Assembly: GCA_003223245.1 (NCBI GenBank)
Contig: QHYI01000136.1
Location: forward strand, 1-55,758
Direction: 5' to 3'
Source: Acidobacteriota bacterium
Lineage (GTDB): Bacteria; Acidobacteriota; Terriglobia; Acidiferrales; UBA7541
DNA length: 55,758 bases
In this document: in pieces, positions 2,345 to 48,228 of the stretch
Position numbering within the stretch: the first letter of the stretch is position 1
How the letters are laid out: every line of letters begins with the position of its first letter
Program-made: the position numbers and the translations under genes
The notes under the pieces: model-generated
Told to the model about the DNA's origin: nothing
Databases searched by the model: none
Seen by the model: only the letters and a program-made list of their open reading frames with translations

Positions 2345-3115
2345 ATGCCGGTAGTGGACGTCGTCAATCTGGATGGCAAGAAAGTCGGCCAAGTGGAACT
2401 CGCAGAAGCAGTCTTTGGCGCGAAGGTGAATCCGCACCTGCTGCACGAAGCTTCGCGATGGTATCTGCGCGGGCTGCGCGCGGGCACGCACAAGACCAAG
2501 GACAAGAGCGAAGTGAGCGGCGCGGGCCGCAAGCTCTGGCGGCAAAAGGGCACGGGCCGCGCGCGCATCGGCTCAATCCGTTCGCCGCTCTGGCGGCACG
2601 GCGGAACGGTCCACGGACCGGAGCCGCGGGATTACCGCTACGCGCTGCCGAAGAAGATGTTGCTCGGCGCGCTGCGTTCGGCGCTTTCCGCAAAGCTGGC
2701 GGAGCAAATGCTGACCGTTGTGGATGCCTGGGCGCTTGAATCGCACAAGACGCACAACCTGGTTTCGGCGCTCGAAAAACTAAATCGCACGAAATCGGCG
2801 CTCTTGGTTTCGCACGGCGAGAACCGCAATCTGGAACTGGCGAGCCGCAACATTGCAGGCGTTAAGCTGGCCGCGCCCAATGTGCTGCAGCCCTACGACG
2901 TGTTGAAGCATGACCTGGTGCTGCTCTCGAAAGATGCCGCCACGCGCTTGAACCACTCACTCGATCCGGAGAGCAAGCCCGTGGTTGTGCCGGATGTAGC
3001 CGCGATTGCTCCCGCCGCGAAGCCGGCCAAGAAAGAAGCCGCGCCGAAAGCGGCAACGAAGAAGTTGACAACGAAGAAACCGGCGAAGCCAAAAACCAAG
3101 AAGGGGAAGGGATAA
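2345..3115 (+). CDS. rplD: 50S ribosomal protein L4 with basic C-terminal tail
   Basis: L4 lines the exit tunnel; in proteobacteria it also autoregulates the S10 operon. The start MPVVDVVNLDGKKVG at 2345 is preferred over an in-frame codon 21 bp upstream because it matches the family N-terminus and follows AGAGAAG. The GAGRKLWRQKGTGRARIG loop that reaches into the tunnel is intact. The protein is 256 residues; the last ~40 (Ala/Pro/Lys rich, PAAKPAKKEAAPKAA and on) lie beyond the usual ~205-residue family length. rplW starts 3 bp later. Confidence 0.97.
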   Translation: MPVVDVVNLDGKKVGQVELAEAVFGAKVNPHLLHEASRWYLRGLRAGTHKTKDKSEVSGAGRKLWRQKGTGRARIGSIRSPLWRHGGTVHGPEPRDYRYALPKKMLLGALRSALSAKLAEQMLTVVDAWALESHKTHNLVSALEKLNRTKSALLVSHGENRNLELASRNIAGVKLAAPNVLQPYDVLKHDLVLLSKDAATRLNHSLDPESKPVVVPDVAAIAPAAKPAKKEAAPKAATKKLTTKKPAKPKTKKGKG

Positions 3116-3118
3116 GCC

Positions 3119-3415
3119 ATGGCGGCCCCTCATTATCAAATTATCCGGCGGCCGATCATCACGGAAAAAGGGCTGGGCGTGAAAGAGACGCAGCATACGG
3201 TGGTCTTTGAAGTGGCATCGGCGGCGACAAAAACAGAAATCAAGGAAGCAGTGCAGCAGATTTTCAAAGTAAAAGTGGACCATGTCCGCACCGCGAACTT
3301 TGTCGGCAAAATGCGCCGGCGGGGCCAGAGCGAAGGCTACCGGCGGGACTGGAAGAAGGCTTACGTAAAGCTCGCCGAAGGCGAGAAAATGATTGAGTAC
3401 GCGGAGAACCTGTAA
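3119..3415 (+). CDS. rplW: 50S ribosomal protein L23
   Basis: L23 sits at the tunnel exit and is the docking site for trigger factor and SRP. It has 98 residues with the expected N-terminus ([13 protein letters not shown]) and the [20 protein letters not shown] loop. The ATG lies 3 bp after the rplD stop, so its ribosome-binding site (AAGGGGAAGGG) is inside the rplD tail codons, which suggests coupled translation. Confidence 0.97.
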
Positions 3416-3461
3416 GGCGGGGATCTCGAACAGACAAGGATTCGGAAGGCAAGAGGCAGCG

Positions 3462-4280
3462 ATGGGACTAAAGAGCTTCAACCCATACACGGCGTCGCGG
3501 CGGTTTATCACCGTCGTGGACAAGAGCCACGTCACCAAGCAGCAGCCCGAGAAAGCGCTGCTCGAGCCGAAAAAGCGTTCGGGCGGCCGCAACAATCAGG
3601 GTGAAGTGGTGATTTGGCACCGCGGCGGCGGTCACAAGAAGATGTACCGCAAGGTGGATTTCCGTCGCGACAAAGTGGGCGTGCCCGCAAAAGTGGCGGC
3701 TATCGAGTACGACCCGAACCGCAGCGCGAACCTGGCGCTGCTGCACTACGCCGATGGCGAGAAGCGCTACATCATCCATCCCATCGGGTTGGAAGTCGGC
3801 GCGACAGTTTCCACCGGCGAAGGCGCGGACATTCTTCCCGGCAATGCGCTGCAGTTCAAGCACATTCCGCCGGGCACGATGGTGCACAACCTCGAGTTGT
3901 ATCCGGGGCGCGGCGGGCAGGTGGTTCGTTCGGCGGGCAGCTCCGCACAGTTGTTAAGCAAGGAAGGCGACATCGCGCTGGTGAAACTGCCTTCCGGCGA
4001 AGTTCGCAAATTCTCCGTGGATTGCATGGCCACGATTGGCCAGGTGGGCAATCTCGACCATGAGAACGAAACCTATGGAAAGGCCGGGCGTACACGGTGG
4101 CGCGGCACCCGGCCCACGGTTCGCGGCGTAGCCATGAACCCGGTGGATCATCCGCACGGAGGCGGCGAAGGGCGCGTCAAGGGCAATCATCCCCAGACGC
4201 CCTGGGCGTTCCCGACGCTCGGCAAGAAGACCAGGCACAACAAGCGCACCGACAAGTTTATTGTCGAGCGCCGGAAGTAA
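3462..4280 (+). CDS. rplB: 50S ribosomal protein L2
   Basis: L2 is needed for subunit joining and peptidyl-transferase function. The start [14 protein letters not shown] at 3462 is chosen over an in-frame codon 69 bp upstream, which would overlap rplW and give a non-family N-terminus. It has 272 residues, the family length. The conserved C-terminal segment [13 protein letters not shown] with the functionally important His is intact. Confidence 0.98.
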
Positions 4281-4366
4281 GAAGTAAAAGGACAGAAGTA
4301 AACGACAGCAAGGAACTGAAGCGAAGGACCGGGCGGTGAAGGCAGAGCAGCCCGGTGAGAGCAAAA

Positions 4367-4681
4367 ATGATGCGAGCAACAAGAACACGAACAACGGGAC
4401 GGCGCAGCCGCCCCATCAAGCGTGCGGCAAAGCGCCGCATGGCAAAACTACACAAGCAGGCGCGTCCGGCAGTACGCGTGCCGGTAGCGCCGCCGGAGCC
4501 GGTGCTGTACAAGTTGTGCAAGCCGGGCTGGGCGGTGATCGTGGAACGCATTCCCAATGCGCAGGGCACGCGGTTTGTCTGCCCGTTCTGCCCGAAGTCC
4601 CACCGCGTTCCCGGACCCGTTCGCGGCTTCAAGAAAGTGCGGCGCGCACAGTGGGGCCGCCTGCGGCGAGTGGAGGAATAA
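4367..4681 (+). CDS. Unknown basic small protein with CPFC motif, inserted between rplB and rpsS
   Basis: I do not recognise a family. The 104 residues start [16 protein letters not shown], chosen because GGTGAGAG lies about 8 bp upstream; an internal ATG at 4439 (MAKLHKQ) is the alternative. The first ~40 residues are strongly Arg/Lys rich. The C-terminal half has C51, CPFC (72-75) and H79, a possible three-Cys/one-His zinc site, and ends Arg rich. Codon use (mostly G/C third positions) matches the neighbours, and the stop lies only 7 bp before rpsS, so translation in this operon is plausible. Most bacteria have nothing between rplB and rpsS. A ribosome-associated role is inference from position and charge only. 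Confidence 0.6.
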
Positions 4682-4688
4682 GGAAGCG

Positions 4689-5042
4689 ATGGCACGCTCA
4701 TTGCATAAAGGGCCGTTTGTCGACGGCCACTTGCGCGAAAAGGTGGAAGCGCTGAACACGCGCAATGAAAAAAAGGTGGTGAAGACCTGGTCGCGCCGTT
4801 CGACGATCGTACCGGAGATGATCGGGCACACCATTGCCGTGCACAACGGCAAGAAATTTATTCCGGTTTACGTGACTGAGCAGATGATCGGTCACAAGCT
4901 GGGCGAGTTTTCGCCGACGCGCTCGTTCAAGGGCCACGGCGTGAAAGCGGCGCTCGAAAAGGCCGCGGGCGTGGCGCCCGCTGGGGGCGCTGCTCCAGGG
5001 GCGGCACCCGCGGGAGGCGGCGGGGCGGCGCCGAAGGGATAA
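4689..5042 (+). CDS. rpsS: 30S ribosomal protein S19 with Ala/Gly/Pro tail
   Basis: S19 forms a complex with S13 in the 30S head near the A-site t[18 protein letters not shown] at 4689 is the canonical start, preceded by AGGAAG. The core ends around residue 90 ([17 protein letters not shown]). The remaining ~25 residues are a low-complexity Ala/Gly/Pro run ([17 protein letters not shown]), making the protein 117 residues against a usual ~92. rplV follows after 3 bp. Confidence 0.97.
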
Positions 5043-5045
5043 ACC

Positions 5046-5558
5046 ATGGCAGAAGCGCAGCAAGTAGTTGCGGGGTCGATTGAAGCGCACGCGCTTGCGC
5101 GGCATGTGCGCATGTCACCGCAGAAAGTGCGGCTGGTGATGGACCTGATTCGCGGGCAGAAGGCGCCCGACGCGCTGCAAACGCTGAAATACACGCAGAA
5201 GCGCGCCGCCAAGCACATCGAAAAAGTGCTGCGGAGCGCCATCGCCAACGCGCGGCAGAAAGCGGACGAAGCGGGCGCGCCTCTGGATGAAGACGAATTG
5301 TACGTTGCGAACTGTTTTGTAAATGAAGGTCCGCGCTGGAAGCGGCTGCGTCCCGCGCCGATGGGCCGCGCGTTCCGTTACCAGAAACGCACCGCGCATC
5401 TGTGGGTGGGCGTGGCCGAGCACCACGTAGCAGCGGCGGAGCGCGTGGCTGCCAATGTTGCAGAGGCGGAGGCCAACAAGGGCGTGCGCGGCACGGCGCG
5501 CCGCGTTCGGAAGGCCTTAACCGGAAAGCAAGCGCCGCCAAAGAAGGGAAAGAAGTAG
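5046..5558 (+). CDS. rplV: 50S ribosomal protein L22 with long basic tail
   Basis: L22 spans the large subunit from surface to exit tunnel and is a macrolide-contact protein. The family core is present (HVRMSPQKVRLVMDLIRG, and PRWKRLRPAPMGRA in the beta-hairpin loop). It has 170 residues, about 55 more than the usual ~110; the additional C-terminus is Ala/Glu then Lys/Arg rich. The ATG is 3 bp after rpsS. Confidence 0.96.
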   Translation: MAEAQQVVAGSIEAHALARHVRMSPQKVRLVMDLIRGQKAPDALQTLKYTQKRAAKHIEKVLRSAIANARQKADEAGAPLDEDELYVANCFVNEGPRWKRLRPAPMGRAFRYQKRTAHLWVGVAEHHVAAAERVAANVAEAEANKGVRGTARRVRKALTGKQAPPKKGKK

Positions 5559-5591
5559 CCGGCCGGGCGAGGGCCGCCTGAAGGAAGGGCT

Positions 5592-6269
5592 ATGGGACAG
5601 AAAACGCATCCGTACGGATTCCGGCTCGGCTACAACAAGCCGTTCCGGTCGCGCTGGTACGCCGACAAGGAATACGCCGATTTGTTGCACGAAGACGTGA
5701 AGCTGCGTACCGAACTGAAAGACAAACTGAAGAGCGCCGGCATCAGCTCGATTGACATCGAGCGCGCCGCCAACAAGCTGGTCGTGCGCATTTACACCGC
5801 GCGGCCCGGCATCATCATCGGGCGCAAGGGTGCGGAGATCGACAAGCTCAAGCAAGAGGTACAAAAGCGCACGAAACGCGAAGTGCACATCGACATCCAG
5901 GAAGTGCATCGCCCGGAGCTGGATGCGCAGCTGGTGGCGGAATCGATTGCGCTGCAGCTCGAAAAGCGCGTGGCGTTCCGCCGCGCGATGCGCAAAGCGG
6001 TGGATTCGGCGCTGCGCTTCGGCTGTAAAGGCATCAAGGTTCGCGTGGCGGGCCGGCTGAACGGCGCGGAAATCGCGCGCAAAGAGTGGTACCTGCAGGG
6101 GCGGTTGCCGCTGCAAACACTGCGCGCGGACATTGACTTCGGCTTTGCCCAGGCCTACACGACCTACGGCGTGATTGGCGTGAAGTGCTGGATCTATCAG
6201 GGGGAAAACATTCCGCGGCGCGCATCGAAAGTGCAGGAACCGCGCGAAGCCGCGGCTGCCGCCGACTAA
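5592..6269 (+). CDS. rpsC: 30S ribosomal protein S3
   Basis: S3 lines the mRNA entry channel and has helicase activity together with S4 and S5. The 225 residues start [14 protein letters not shown], contain the KH-domain loop [15 protein letters not shown], and keep the C-terminal domain with [19 protein letters not shown] precedes the ATG. It is followed 37 bp later by rplP. Confidence 0.97.
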
Positions 6270-6306
6270 GGGAGTTTTTTATCACCGAGAACTAGGGGAC
6301 AGAACG

Positions 6307-6723
6307 ATGTTGATGCCGAAAAAAGTGAAGTACCGCAAGCAGATGCGCGGGCGGCGCAGGGGCAAGGCCTGGCGCGGCGGCGATTTGTCGTTTGGCGAAT
6401 ACGGCTTGAAGGCGCTTGAAAATGCGTGGATCACCGACCGGCAGATCGAAGCTTCGCGCGTGGCCATTACGCGCTTCATCAAGCGCGGCGGCAAATTGTG
6501 GATTCGCATTTTTCCGGACAAGCCCTTTACCAAGAAGCCCGCGGAAACCCGCATGGGCAAAGGCAAAGGCGCTCCGGAGCGCTGGGTGTCCGTGGTGAAG
6601 CCGGGACGCATCCTGTTCGAGATGGCGGGAATTGATGAAGCGACGGCACGGGAAGCGCTGGAATTGGCGGCGCACAAACTGCCTATTCCCACGCGATTCG
6701 TCACCCGTTCGGGAGGATTCTAA
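6307..6723 (+). CDS. rplP: 50S ribosomal protein L16
   Basis: L16 helps position A-site tRNA and assemble the central protuberance. The start [15 protein letters not shown] is canonical, and the 138 residues match the family length. GRMGKGKG-type and [10 protein letters not shown] segments are present. The gene ends 2 bp before rpmC, so the two are probably translationally coupled. Confidence 0.97.
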
Positions 6724-6725
6724 GC

Positions 6726-6929
6726 ATGCCACGGCGCATCGAGAAAATCCGCGAAGCCGGCAGGGAAGAGCTCGAAGCGCAGCACAAGGAGTTGACCGAG
6801 CAGATTTTCCGGCTGCGCTTTCAGTTGACCACCGGACAGGCGGAAGCGCTGAAGCGGCTGCGCGAAGCGAAAAAGGATTTGGCGCGGGTGAAGACGCTGT
6901 TGCGGGCTCAGGAATTGAGGAAAGCATAA
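6726..6929 (+). CDS. rpmC: 50S ribosomal protein L29
   Basis: L29 is a small two-helix protein beside L23 at the exit tunnel. It has 67 residues including the family pattern EEL-x(12)[11 protein letters not shown]. It sits 2 bp after rplP, and its stop codon abuts the rpsQ start directly. Confidence 0.95.
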
Positions 6930-45297: not shown

Positions 45298-45517
45298 AGG
45301 AATTCAGAGTCCTCTTTTATGTACAAACGCTTTTCATCGTTATTCCCGGTGCTGCAGCTCAGGCCTTTAGGCCAGAGGAATCTCCGTTCCCGCGAAAGCC
45401 AAGGAAAGCGCGATGCTGCCTGCAAATTTCAAAACCTGCGCCTGCACAAATTCCCTGCACCGTGAATCAAGCCAAGATAACATCCGCACCCTGAACTAAC
45501 AAGAAAGTGCGCCGGCA
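45298..45517. other. Non-coding flank between the carbonic-anhydrase-like gene and the IS element
   Basis: No gene is seen. It contains a degenerate TGTAG-like hairpin (45352-45378, CAGGCCT-TT-AGGCCAG) and ends in the left target duplication (45510-45517) of the inserted element. Confidence 0.5.
45510..45517. repeat. Left target-site duplication CGCCGGCA
   Basis: CGCCGGCA directly abuts the left terminal repeat; an identical octamer follows the right end at 47825-47832. An 8-bp duplication fits IS1-type insertions, which make 8-10 bp duplications. Confidence 0.85.
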
Positions 45518-45535
45518 GGTGGTGTCCTAATTTGA
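45518..45535 (+). repeat. Left terminal inverted repeat
   Basis: 18 bp starting GGTGGTGTCC, one mismatch to the right end. GG at the tip is usual in IS1-family ends. Confidence 0.85.
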
Positions 45536-45560
45536 AGAACTCGCTAAAATTAAGCACACT

Positions 45561-46322
45561 TCATTGGCTCGCAGTCTTTGTTTGCGCTCTCAGTTTGTAT
45601 TCGCCTTGGGGGCCTTCTGGTTTGTGTTCCACAAAGATTACGACCCGGGTAGGGGTCGGGTGTATTCCAAGCAAGTTTTGGTGCTCTGGGGAGATGATTG
45701 CGTCGAACCCACGTGAAGATAGTTCTCCGACCAGAGCAGTTGCAGCTGTACGACTGGGTTCATCGCTGGTGCACCAGACAACTACACCAGTTGGTAAGCG
45801 CGGATTCGTGCCAAGTGGAACCGGCCCCTCGCGCATAACGGTCATCCCTAATGGTTCAGGTACATCCCACTTAGCTGCATGCAGCATCGCTGCAATATCA
45901 GATGCGAAACTCGTGGCCTCTATATCCTGCGTGTTATACGCCACTAATGCTGGTTCCTTGGCGAAGCGAGTCAGGTGCGATGCAGCGCCGGATTGCGCGT
46001 GCGAATCCAGTTTTCTCCATGCCACTTTACTTTCCAATTCAACGCGAGCTAACCGTTCATCTTCTGTGGCTTTCTTTAGATGTGCAGATTCATTTTCTAA
46101 ATTGGCAATTCGTTCGCGTGCGGTTGCTTCTTTAATATCGGATATTTTCTCTTGTACATCCGATAACTCCTTAGCGCGTACGAACGCCAGCCTTTGGCTG
46201 AATACGATGGCACCAGCAGCGACAAATGTGATTAACAGCGCCCATAGAACCGCCGCATTCCAGAAATCAACCTTCGAAGTTAGCTCACTCGCGCGTGATG
46301 CCAAGGATTCTAGTTCCGACAT
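45561..46322 (-). CDS. Cargo protein: one membrane helix, coiled coil, C-terminal domain of unknown function
   Basis: Not recognised. 253 residues from ATG 46322 with AGGGA 6 bp upstream. A single hydrophobic helix at 22-43 (NAAVLWALLITFVAAGAIVF) is followed by a charged coiled coil (about 48-100, KELSDVQEKISDIKEATARE). Residues ~125-235 look globular, alpha/beta, with VVVWCTSDEPSRTAATALVG and TRVVIFVEHKPEGPQG. The shape suggests a membrane-anchored oligomer with a cytosolic domain. It lies inside the IS-like element and is divergent from the transposase, with overlapping -35 boxes. Codons are more A/T rich than host genes. Confidence 0.75.
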   Translation of the reverse strand: MSELESLASRASELTSKVDFWNAAVLWALLITFVAAGAIVFSQRLAFVRAKELSDVQEKISDIKEATARERIANLENESAHLKKATEDERLARVELESKVAWRKLDSHAQSGAASHLTRFAKEPALVAYNTQDIEATSFASDIAAMLHAAKWDVPEPLGMTVMREGPVPLGTNPRLPTGVVVWCTSDEPSRTAATALVGELSSRGFDAIISPEHQNLLGIHPTPTRVVIFVEHKPEGPQGEYKLRAQTKTASQ

Positions 46323-46414
46323 ATTCCCTACCTCTGAAAAAGCAGTGTGGTCGGTTCTACTGCTCTACTACTTTGGGCTTGGAGTATTCCTGTGGCTTAC
46401 TAACCCACGGAAAA

Positions 46415-46442
46415 AGTGTAACACACAAATACTTCTTGACAA
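46415..46442 (-). promoter_or_regulatory. Promoter of the left cargo gene
   Basis: On the minus strand TTGTCA (46442-46437), 16 nt, TACACT (46420-46415). Its -35 box overlaps the -35 box of the transposase promoter on the other strand. Confidence 0.55.
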
Positions 46443-46464
46443 GACCTAATTACTGTAATACATT
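46436..46464 (+). promoter_or_regulatory. Promoter of the transposase
   Basis: TTGACA (46436-46441), 17 nt, TACATT (46459-46464), 22 bp before the transposase ATG. A perfect -35 and a moderate -10. Confidence 0.6.
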
Positions 46465-46486
46465 AATAGTTAGAGGAAGAGCGCAT

Positions 46487-47314
46487 ATGGCGAACGTCTT
46501 AAGCATTGACAAACAAGTTGCGGTAATTAGCGCGTTGGCTGAAGGCTCTGGAATCCGGCAGATTGAGCGCATAACAGGCGTCCATCGCGATACGATCATG
46601 CGGCTTGGCGTTCACATTGGCCAAGGTTGTGCTACTCTGCTGGACCATAAAATGCGCAACCTGTCCTGCCAGCATCTCCAGTTCGATGAAATTTGGGGAT
46701 TCATCGGCAAGAAGGAACGTCACATGCGCCCGGAGGATAACCCTGAACTTGGTGACGCGTGGACGTTTTGCGCGATAGATTCCGAGACAAAGCTAGTGCC
46801 ATCATTCAAAGTGGGAAAGCGTGACCTAATGACAGCCAATGCATTTGTATCTGACGTAGCCTCACGGATGAAGAACCGCGTGCAAATCTCCAGCGATGCC
46901 CTGAGAGCCTACGTGGAGGCAATCGAGGTAGCATTCGGCGCTAACGTTGACTTCGCTCAAATCATCAAGACTTACGTCACGGATGATTCACACCTTCCCG
47001 AGCGGAGGTTCAGTGCACCGGAAATCGTTATCACGGAAAAGAAGTCCGTCACTGGATTCCCCGATATGGCGTTGGCGTCCACTAGCTATGTTGAGCCATT
47101 GAATGGAACGACCCGCCTGCATATGCGTCGTTTGACTCGCCTTACTTATGCATTCAGCAAGAAGCTGGAGAATTTCGAGGCTGCTGTCGCGCTGCACTTC
47201 GCGTACTACAATCTTGTAAAGGGTCATGGAACCTTGCGCTGCACTCCTGCAATGGCAGCGGGTGTTGAGAAGAGTTTTTGGAGCGTTGGCGATCTGATAG
47301 AGGCTGCGGTGTGA
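46487..47314 (+). CDS. IS1-family transposase, single frame
   Basis: A 275-residue DDE-type transposase. ATG 46487 has GAGGAAGAG upstream. The N-terminus has a helix-turn-helix (GSGIRQIERITGVHRDTIMR). LQFDEIWGFIGKKER (D67), FCAIDSETKLVPSF (D98), VQISSDALRAY (D137) and YVEPLNGTTR (E203) supply candidate acidic residues. The C-terminal RLTRLTYAFSKKLENFEAAV and FAYYNLVKGHGTLRCTPAMA are typical of IS1-type proteins. No frameshift site is needed, unlike E. coli IS1. Its stop overlaps the next start (GTGA). Confidence 0.92.
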   Translation: MANVLSIDKQVAVISALAEGSGIRQIERITGVHRDTIMRLGVHIGQGCATLLDHKMRNLSCQHLQFDEIWGFIGKKERHMRPEDNPELGDAWTFCAIDSETKLVPSFKVGKRDLMTANAFVSDVASRMKNRVQISSDALRAYVEAIEVAFGANVDFAQIIKTYVTDDSHLPERRFSAPEIVITEKKSVTGFPDMALASTSYVEPLNGTTRLHMRRLTRLTYAFSKKLENFEAAVALHFAYYNLVKGHGTLRCTPAMAAGVEKSFWSVGDLIEAAV

Positions 47315-47625
47315 ATCAGATTCAAGAACTACGGGAGATAATTCAGCGTTTGCATGGTGCTGACGCTACGCATATTGAGAGCGTGCATGTGAAAGAGACG
47401 TTTCAGGGAAAGACCGTTTGGGAAGGTATCGTGGAAGTTTTCGCATTGCACGGCCATCCGAAGGCTACTAGGGCATACGCTTGGGCGCACGATACGGACG
47501 ACCCGACAAAACCTAGGCGGCATGTCACGGTCTTGCACGTTGAGCCTATCACGTCGGCAGCGGCGGCAGTCAGAGCAGCAATCGTTCAGGAGTTTAGAAG
47601 CCTTGAGCCAACAGAAGAAAGCTAG
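47311..47625 (+). CDS. Cargo protein of 104 residues, unknown
   Basis: Starts with GTG at 47311, overlapping the transposase stop by 4 bp (GTGA), so it is very likely co-translated with it. The N-terminus is VNQIQELREIIQRLHGADAT, followed by TFQGKTVWEGIVEVFALHGH and RAYAWAHDTDDPTK, ending with an acidic tail. It looks like a compact alpha/beta protein. No family recognised. Its 3' end overlaps the following ribbon-helix-helix frame if the TTG start of that gene is used. Confidence 0.75.
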   Translation: MNQIQELREIIQRLHGADATHIESVHVKETFQGKTVWEGIVEVFALHGHPKATRAYAWAHDTDDPTKPRRHVTVLHVEPITSAAAAVRAAIVQEFRSLEPTEES

Positions 47626-47800
47626 GAAAGCGGGACGGCCAAAGCTGCCCAAGGGTAAGGCTATGGGACGCATCGTGCCCGTTCGCTTTGCACCGGACGT
47701 TTTGCGAGTGATGGAAGCAAAGGCAAAGGCGGTGAATCAGAGTCTTTCGGAATGGATACGGAGCACGTTAAATGCCGCACTCAACGGAAAACGACCGTGA
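47603..47800 (+). CDS. Ribbon-helix-helix protein, cargo
   Basis: A 65-residue frame from TTG 47603 (AGGAG about 10 bp upstream), with ATG 47663 as the alternative. The start Lys/Arg-rich segment (KKARKAGRPKLPKGKA) is followed by RIVPVRFAPDVLRVMEAKAK and QSLSEWIRSTLNAAL, the strand-helix-helix pattern of Arc/MetJ-like DNA-binding proteins. It overlaps the preceding gene by 23 bp. A role as regulator of the element's divergent promoters is inference; it could also belong to a toxin-antitoxin-like unit, but no toxin is recognised. Confidence 0.7.
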   Translation: MSQQKKARKAGRPKLPKGKAMGRIVPVRFAPDVLRVMEAKAKAVNQSLSEWIRSTLNAALNGKRP

Positions 47801-47806
47801 GGAAAA

Positions 47807-47824
47807 TCAAATTAGGACACTACC
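47807..47824 (-). repeat. Right terminal inverted repeat
   Basis: 18 bp, read on the complement as GGTAGTGTCC and onward, paired to the left end with one mismatch. Confidence 0.85.
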
Positions 47825-47832
47825 CGCCGGCA
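47825..47832. repeat. Right target-site duplication CGCCGGCA
   Basis: Identical to 45510-45517; confirms a recent and complete insertion. Confidence 0.85.
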
Positions 47833-47840
47833 GGTGCCCG

Positions 47841-48185
47841 TCACTTTCGACTGGCTTCTAGGAGCAGAATGTTGTGCCCTTCCGGATCGTGAAGGGCAGC
47901 CCAATGAGGCTCCGTCCGTACGAACCGATTCGGGCCGATGGCGTTGATTGCCGCTTGCAGATCGGGCACCTCGAAGAAAAGCACCGCCTTATCGCGAGAG
48001 GGGTAGGACTCCGAACCTTTGGTTTCCAGGCAGACAAACCCAGCGCCGAAGTCAAACTTGGCATGGTGACCGGGCTGTTCCTCCGAGATGCGCAGGCCCA
48101 GTAGGTCGAGGTAAAACGTCCTGGCACGCTCTAAATCTTCAAAATAGAGCTCGACGCCCACAAATTGAGCACAAATATCGCTCAT
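47841..48185 (-). CDS. Small VOC (glyoxalase/bleomycin-resistance fold) protein
   Basis: A 114-residue single VOC domain: GVELYFEDLERARTFYLDLL, FFEVPDLQAAINAIG and LHDPEGHNILLLEA. ATG 48185 has AGGAGG directly upstream. Metal-ligand positions (Glu13 at the first strand, Glu110 at the last, His residues between) are compatible with a metal site. The substrate is unknown. It follows mrp by 43 bp on the minus strand, and its stop is 9 bp from the target duplication. Confidence 0.8.
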   Translation of the reverse strand: MSDICAQFVGVELYFEDLERARTFYLDLLGLRISEEQPGHHAKFDFGAGFVCLETKGSESYPSRDKAVLFFEVPDLQAAINAIGPNRFVRTEPHWAALHDPEGHNILLLEASRK

Positions 48186-48228
48186 AGGCCTCCTGGACCG
48201 GCCCAACCGTTCTGAGTGGAAAGCCGCG

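Follow-up and report, generated by a model that had tools for sequence, protein, structure and literature searches.

Introduction

Insertion sequences of the IS1 family have ends that begin with GGT. Classical IS1 is shorter than about 1 kb and produces its transposase from insA/insB' via a frameshift; long members with a single reading frame are known in ISfinder, an ISMhu11 subgroup exists, and some members of the family carry passengers. An insertion sequence whose ends enclose passenger genes is called a transporter insertion sequence (tIS; PMC7986276, PMC9330008). Repressors borne on transposons are also known already: CvkR, a MerR-type protein with a conserved palindromic site, is reported to repress the transposition genes of V-K CRISPR-associated transposons (PMC9938897). 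Here we analysed a stretch of 55,758 nucleotides (the window), contig QHYI01000136.1 of the Acidobacteriota assembly GCA_003223245.1. The segment at 45518-47824 is likely to be a complete-looking, cargo-carrying element of the IS1 family, a transporter insertion sequence, with a self-encoded autorepressor of the ribbon-helix-helix (RHH) type. This reading is drawn from the anatomy of the element, from its relatives in other genomes, and from joint variation of the RHH protein and a predicted operator at the transposase promoter. In open-licence literature, covered in part, we found neither an insertion sequence described as having an RHH repressor nor any account of such a repressor's operator switching; this is not proof of absence.

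Compared with the described systems, the element resembles the long single-frame, ISMhu11-type members of IS1 in its probable IS1-type transposase, its ends starting with GGT and its 8-bp duplication. It differs from them in the presence of a 104-aa core gene and an RHH gene, and in a transposase score below the curated cut-off. Because it has one open frame (46487-47314), rather than insA/insB, and is 2307 bp long, the classical two-frame IS1 was excluded. As in tIS, its ends enclose a transposase together with a passenger gene; unlike passengers, two of its extra genes appear to be recurrent parts of the element. With RelB, NikA and AtaR/TacA-type proteins it shares an RHH protein encoded in the operon that it is thought to control. 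RelB is further alike in its TGTA-type half-sites over the promoter and in a specificity set by alternate beta-strand residues (PMC2812701), whereas here the arms lie 22-28 bp apart instead of adjacent, the predicted target is the transposase and no cognate toxin is seen. CvkR is alike in being a transposon-encoded repressor of transposition genes (a predicted role here), but it belongs to an unrelated protein family, resides in a larger Tn7-like element and has one conserved motif in place of the switching operator types described below (PMC9938897).

Anatomy of the element and its relatives

The IS1-like element contains four genes, and all four open reading frames (ORFs) are open. Its terminal repeats (45518-45535 and 47807-47824) are identical at 17/18 bases, and CGCCGGCA borders it on both sides as an 8/8 target duplication. 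When 3 or fewer mismatches are allowed, the whole window has two sites that fit the pattern of the ends, both of them the element ends, against a chance expectation of 0.02. GC content per 500-base window is 0.45-0.54 within the element and 0.53-0.63 in the surroundings. The features are as follows.

45510-45517, no strand: target-site duplication, left copy CGCCGGCA, same as 47825-47832
45518-45535, plus strand: left terminal inverted repeat GGTGGTGTCCTAATTTGA; the consensus of relatives is GGTAGTGTCCTAATTTGA
45561-46322, minus strand: passenger gene, 253 aa, with an N-terminal membrane-type segment, a long helix (coiled coil) and a C-terminal alpha/beta region
46417-46425, no strand: predicted RHH operator, left arm TGTAACACA, from co-variation in relatives
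46436-46441, plus strand: -35 hexamer TTGACA of the transposase promoter; CTTGACA in relatives
46454-46462, no strand: predicted operator, right arm TGTAATACA, overlapping the -10
46459-46464, plus strand: -10-like TACATT, 17-bp spacing to the -35, read from the sequence
46487-47314, plus strand: single-frame IS1-like DDE transposase, 275 aa, from its ORF and NCBIfam transpos_IS1
47311-47625, plus strand: element-core accessory gene, 104 aa; its GTG start overlaps the transposase stop
47603-47800, plus strand: RHH protein, 65 aa, predicted autorepressor; overlaps the preceding gene
47807-47824, minus strand: right terminal inverted repeat GGTAGTGTCCTAATTTGA, from end comparison
47825-47832, no strand: target-site duplication, right copy CGCCGGCA, same as the left copy

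Relatives were collected in a scan of named genomes, from which the best 80 of 201 loci were kept; counts over 81 are these loci plus the window. Both ends together with a perfect 8- or 9-bp duplication were present in 58/80 related loci, for which reason the element is more than chance. Both ends without a duplication were present in 4/80, and the ends were not found in 18/80, many of these on short contigs. The end consensus of the relatives is GGTAGTGTCCTAATTTGA, and the 58 elements are 1911-5804 bp long (median about 2.9 kb). Hosts are mostly Acidobacteriota and Verrucomicrobiota; several Deltaproteobacteria, Chloroflexi, Fibrobacteres and a Methylocystis were further named hosts, with the proviso that contigs of metagenome-assembled genomes can be misassigned. 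A transposase relative was present in 57/347 genomes sampled from the phylum. Inspection of 53 loci of this sample, window included, with wide flanks gave 37 with both ends and a duplication (at most 1 mismatch), 1 with ends only and 15 with neither by the rule used. The target duplications in relatives that carry different cargo indicate movement as one unit, and we infer that the element is mobile.

The sequence-only reading had taken 45518-47824 for a complete and self-contained IS1-like element with extra genes, one of them of regulatory function, and had cited the 17/18 ends, the perfect 8-bp duplication and the differing GC content. These observations were confirmed, the anatomy supports the element as a unit, and the RHH gene makes the regulatory function likely. 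Ends shared by chance, with no further copies, would have counted against that reading; the same ends are found on many copies in many genomes.

The IS1 family model transpos_IS1 of NCBIfam is the best family for the window transposase (E 4.4e-15) and is matched at 1e-5 by all 18 transposases of alignment A3. Residues D67, E68, D98, D137, D155 and E203 are identical in 81/81 transposases, and dN/dS of the transposase is 0.06-0.14 in pairs of relatives. The ends start with GGT, as in IS1, and the duplication has the 8-9 bp of that family in the window (8/8) as in the 58 relatives. Several points weigh against our reading of the element. The window transposase scores 56.1 bits with transpos_IS1, whose cut-off is 100, and 22.3 bits with Pfam DDE_Tnp_IS1, whose cut-off is 24.1; 15/18 transposases also match the IS6 model at 1e-5, at best less strongly; and the whole element is single-copy in its own genome (6.3 Mb, 237 contigs). 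The comparison defines a widespread group of cargo carriers with ends GGTAGTGTCCTAATTTGA, and annotation may miss such elements because the window transposase is below the family cut-offs and the 104-aa protein has no Pfam family above cut-off.

A predicted operator that co-varies with the RHH strand

Upstream of the transposase gene lies an inverted repeat, TGTAnnnCA ahead of the -35 and TGnnnTACA across the -10. CTTGACA occurs in 34/81 upstream regions, and the -10-like TACAnT is also common to many relatives. Inverted repeats of 10 bp with at least 9/10 matches were present upstream of the transposase in 32/81 loci, compared with 6.4% of 1,620 Markov-shuffled sequences. The predicted operator, with arms 22-28 bp apart, was present in 45/59 loci with an RHH gene and in 1/22 without one (Fisher p 3e-9). 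The end motif CCTAATT, which occurs in the window promoter, was tried as a shared operator and rejected, being present in 4/81 upstream regions with 2.2 expected.

The type of operator follows the DNA-reading strand of the RHH protein. Among the 50/81 rows having both an RHH match and an operator candidate, CCCC in both arms (TGTACCCCA) was present in 9/9 with an LR[VI]R[VI]T strand and in 0/41 with other strands. Both traits show 8 changes each when mapped on the best transposase tree, well supported branches forcing at least 5 of them, and independent pairs on well supported branches are concordant in 5/5. A partial Mantel analysis of 38 rows from the Acidobacteriota-type clade, given transposase distance, yielded r = 0.70 for operator against strand (0/5,000 permutations) and r = 0.23 for operator against helices (5/5,000 permutations); left out were L108 (arms match at 2/9), L135 and L141, which lack an operator candidate, and L124, which lacks an RHH. 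In the same clade the variable base is C in 9/9 rows with Arg at strand position 3, in 4/6 with Gln and in 0/21 with Pro. Loci L118 and L121, with transposases 94% identical, differ in both traits, though the operator and the RHH gene flank the transposase gene on opposite sides. RelB contacts bases through strand residues S3, D5 and R7 at an operator core TGT[A/C]A (PMC2812701), which agrees with strand positions 1, 3 and 5 here. The core of the predicted operator co-varies with the RHH strand predicted to read it.

The three DNA-facing residues of the strand may be read as a code within the Acidobacteriota-type clade: I-P-R would go with TGTA(A/T/G), V-Q-R mostly with TGTACTACA, K-Q-R with TGTACTCCA and x-R-R with TGTACCCCA. 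The strand pattern match misframes L120, L125, L139 and L110, and for these four the strands are those of the Mantel alignment. A few loci found later were used as checks. L237 fits the rule, and viral contig 3300032895_000009 has the TGTACTCCA operator with strand SKVQVRL, as expected from L130 (GKIQARL, same operator). L264 (Val) has the operator of L137 (Ala). A search of genomes at family level returned mostly records of the earlier scan and little independent data; L230 is a copy of L144 with a misplaced start. When viral contigs were scanned with three types of operator, 1, 0 and 1 stretches were found.

Other observations count against a repressor that reads this operator, or restrict its code. 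The two arms in the window agree at just 7/9, and 14/59 RHH-bearing loci have no operator by the rule used, some of which (such as L153, L154, L161 and L174) have perfect 10-bp repeats in the inverted-repeat count. The LR/CCCC rule was noticed first and counted afterwards, so that the count, tree and Mantel tests lack independence from the way it was found, and a two-sided sign test on well supported branches alone gives p = 0.0625. Gln occurs without C in L113, L115 and L154. Among the later-found loci, L212 has Pro and a C in the left arm, a fit in one arm only; L241, which has Gln but no C, departs from the rule. An exact CCCC operator in one viral contig was set aside, as it belongs to an unrelated recombinase element. 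The Verrucomicrobial loci L150, L166 and L184, which have Arg at the key position followed by Ala (LRARV- or VRARV-type strands), carry TGTAGCACA as direct rather than inverted sites flanking the -35. Arg alone therefore does not dictate CCCC, and because of these three loci and L154 the strand code is not universal. On these sequences L150, L166 and L184 form a further putative repressor/site class outside the code of the clade.

A proposed self-limiting circuit

From the co-variation we infer that the RHH protein binds the operator at its own promoter and represses it. The single-frame IS1-type transposase would act on the 18-bp ends and duplicate 8 bp of target, as the anatomy and the relatives indicate. 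The 104-aa and RHH proteins, encoded in overlapping frames behind the transposase, would be genes of the element itself, the former probably serving transposition or its control. The RHH protein would read the inverted TGTAnnnCA/TGnnnTACA pair at the promoter of its own operon, the arms of which flank the -35, the right arm also covering part of the -10. In elements of the window type the transposase operon would be repressed by the product of its last gene: more element product would mean less transposase, and transposition would stay low and self-limited. The membrane/coiled-coil gene would be freight, an exchangeable passenger.

We tentatively extend this autorepression model to a heteroimmunity like that of phages, which we consider less likely than not. 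Each RHH repressor would silence transposases with a matching operator, and a newcomer of another type would escape repression by the resident; on such a model the repressor strand and both operator arms would switch type together, repeatedly. Six genomes in this set have two RHH-bearing elements each: the strand types differ in L121/L125, L118/L264, L156/L166 and L161/L174, and are alike in L119/L129 and L133/L135. Sequence comparison makes it possible to recognise the predicted repressor and its target, as well as the repeated switching of the two together, and the relatives offer a natural set of repressor/operator pairs with which to study RHH specificity and to ask whether residents exclude their own kind.

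The 104-aa and RHH genes

The 104-aa family was found by profile searches in 78/80 loci, being absent from L124 and L151, and lies inside the element in every locus with both ends located; some loci have it on the opposite strand, at the far end. The 347 phylum genomes gave 8 strong matches (E < 1e-37), every one at a locus that has this transposase; 7 lie between ends with a duplication, and at the eighth (G075) no ends were found. Three weaker matches (E 2e-13 to 4e-4) were unplaced in elements, the strongest with an end-like sequence nearby. In viral contigs, 17 loci have the gene. As these were retrieved by the 104-aa protein itself, they are uninformative on how often elements lack it. 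It lies between two recognisable ends in 8/17 (L185, L187, L190, L192, L193, L194, L195, L200), 5 of which have identical 8-bp flanks (L185, L190, L192, L194, L195). The dN/dS of the gene is 0.04-0.27 in 6/8 pairs of relatives, the other 2 being saturated; by this measure the gene is under selection.

AlphaFold2 predicted an alpha-beta4-alpha structure for the 104-aa protein (pLDDT 91.4). The model had no clear match with Foldseek against PDB (best E 0.31), with VIA-align (best Z 4.7, rmsd 4.0, 78 residues) or in BFVD (best E 0.12), a result that does not establish a new fold. Pfam US10 (E 0.0018, below cut-off; 2/74 members at 0.01) was taken as a chance match, and phage and plasmid records gave no match to the protein. 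The co-occurrence in 78/80 loci, together with the lack of a confident relative of known function by sequence or fold, indicates that the gene belongs to the element.

The RHH gene is present in 58/80 loci. Its start is assumed to be TTG; an ATG further inside is possible. At a threshold of 0.01 the family matches NikA-like (35/37 members), TacA1 (6/37), RHH_1 (5/37) and HicB (3/37), and its profile matches the NikA structure 2ba3 with E 4.4e-5; the window protein alone is below the Pfam cut-off. The features of RHH transcription factors, namely a beta-strand, two helices with an SxWIR-type second helix, and matches to RHH families and structures, are all present. In Verrucomicrobial loci the RHH gene often stands by itself, ahead of the transposase and in divergent orientation.

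A couple of small genes that overlap, with an RHH related to the antitoxin families TacA1, HicB and RHH_1 in second place, recall a toxin-antitoxin pair that would stabilise the element, the RHH antitoxin repressing as antitoxins do; such pairs are reported to be integral to transposons of the Tn3 family (PMC7157771). We consider this improbable. The 104-aa gene is without a detectable RHH in 20/78 loci, some of them on short contigs, and the RHH gene is often apart in the Verrucomicrobial arrangement just mentioned. A 790-bp element on a viral contig (L190, 4692-5481; 8/8 duplication) holds the 104-aa gene with no transposase or RHH match, no resemblance of the 104-aa protein to a known toxin was found by sequence or fold, and the constant gene pair with a toxin partner that marks type II systems was not seen. 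A 104-aa gene and an RHH gene that both serve the element itself remain our preferred reading.

The membrane gene and exchangeable cargo

Opposite the membrane gene, and overlapping it, the plus strand has a longer ORF of 305 aa (45532-46449). No similar ORF was found in the 80 relatives, whereas the minus-strand protein has similar ORFs there; GC1 (0.60) exceeds GC2 (0.47) in the minus frame, as in the other genes, unlike the plus frame. On account of these homologues and of this pattern we assign the gene to the minus strand. The protein had no Pfam match at 1e-5 and weak, below-cut-off matches at E<=1; its AlphaFold2 model was poor (pLDDT 62.5) and was not used for fold search. Proteins similar to it occupy the corresponding position in 4 relatives (L125 and L128; weakly in L138 and L144) and occur outside recognisable elements in 4 genomes, as judged from 1.5 kb flanks; none was found in viral contigs. 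That Acidobacteriota-type elements have a fixed slot for a membrane protein at their left end was considered and rejected. With an ORF of at least 120 aa and a hydrophobic segment of mean >=1.5 over 19 residues as the test, the minus strand scored 29/33 and the opposite strand likewise 29/33; codon-position GC was undecided on the strand (17/31), and a slot across the clade is not claimed.

The cargo of the relatives is varied. The cargo set (alignment A6) comprises 102 ORFs from 57 loci (56 relatives plus the window), being 99 of 106 listed cargo ORFs, the window protein and the minus-strand ORFs of L125 and L128. Pfam identified P63C in 4, DNA methylase in 2, NYN in 2 and YdaS in 2, and one ORF each for Tsp45I, Panacea, zeta, PemK, PIN, RelA/SpoT, IrrE and others. 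Restriction-modification or toxin/antitoxin matches are thus a minority of the 102. The families among the first 25 of 86 PADLOC matches listed for cargo are methyltransferases. In L163 (element 2496-6825) we take adjacent ORFs to encode a restriction enzyme and a DNA methylase, likely a restriction-modification pair inside an IS1-type element; the cargo Pfam table contains two N6_N4 methylases and one Tsp45I, the carrying ORFs not being specified.

The sequence-only reading had counted three cargo genes and had suggested a defence or maintenance cassette. The membrane gene is indeed cargo and varies, while the 104-aa gene (78/80) and the RHH gene (58/80) recur and look like parts of the element. 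Relatives of the membrane protein outside recognisable elements, which that reading had named as contrary evidence, do occur, as is expected of a passenger. A cassette with the membrane protein as effector and the RHH protein as its regulator has in its favour the DNA methylase, Tsp45I, zeta, PemK, PIN, RelA/SpoT, Panacea and IrrE-type cargo of some relatives. For this copy it is unlikely, slightly more so than a toxin-antitoxin pair: PADLOC had no match for the four window proteins, an absence that leaves an undescribed system possible, and Pfam none for the membrane protein, the predicted operator sits at the promoter of the transposase, with about 95 bp between it and the first codon of the membrane gene, and the window has its RHH gene behind the transposase. 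That all three extra genes are chance passengers and the inverted repeat is ordinary promoter conservation is very improbable, since, for all the diverse cargo of such elements and the constraint of the -35 and -10 positions on part of the repeat, the 104-aa gene co-occurs in 78/80 and both arms switch together with the RHH strand over an unchanged transposase (L118/L121).

Further elements of the host genome

A second IS1-like element lies on contig C46 of the same genome (L060). It is 3172 bp long, with ends GGTAGTGTCTCAGTTTGA and its own 8/8 duplication, and its transposase is 44% identical to that of the window. In the wider group of L060 the 104-aa gene is replaced, near one end, by family F3, a small protein marked by the motif GRLGGLKGGxARAxxLS...ARW, and cargo that we read as toxin-antitoxin-like is frequent.

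On contig C92, from 39708 (L088, 1501-2065), the genome has an element that lacks a transposase; it is about 565 bp long, its ends are of the same type as in the window element (left end GGTAGGGTCCTAATTTGA) and its duplication is 7/8. It seems to hold a glyoxalase/VOC-like gene on the minus strand, the VOC label being our own reading, and may be a mobile cassette, possibly dependent on a window-like element for its movement. In the window, a gene that we also read as VOC-type (47841-48187, minus strand) adjoins the right end of the element; by eye it is unrelated to the VOC-like gene of L088.

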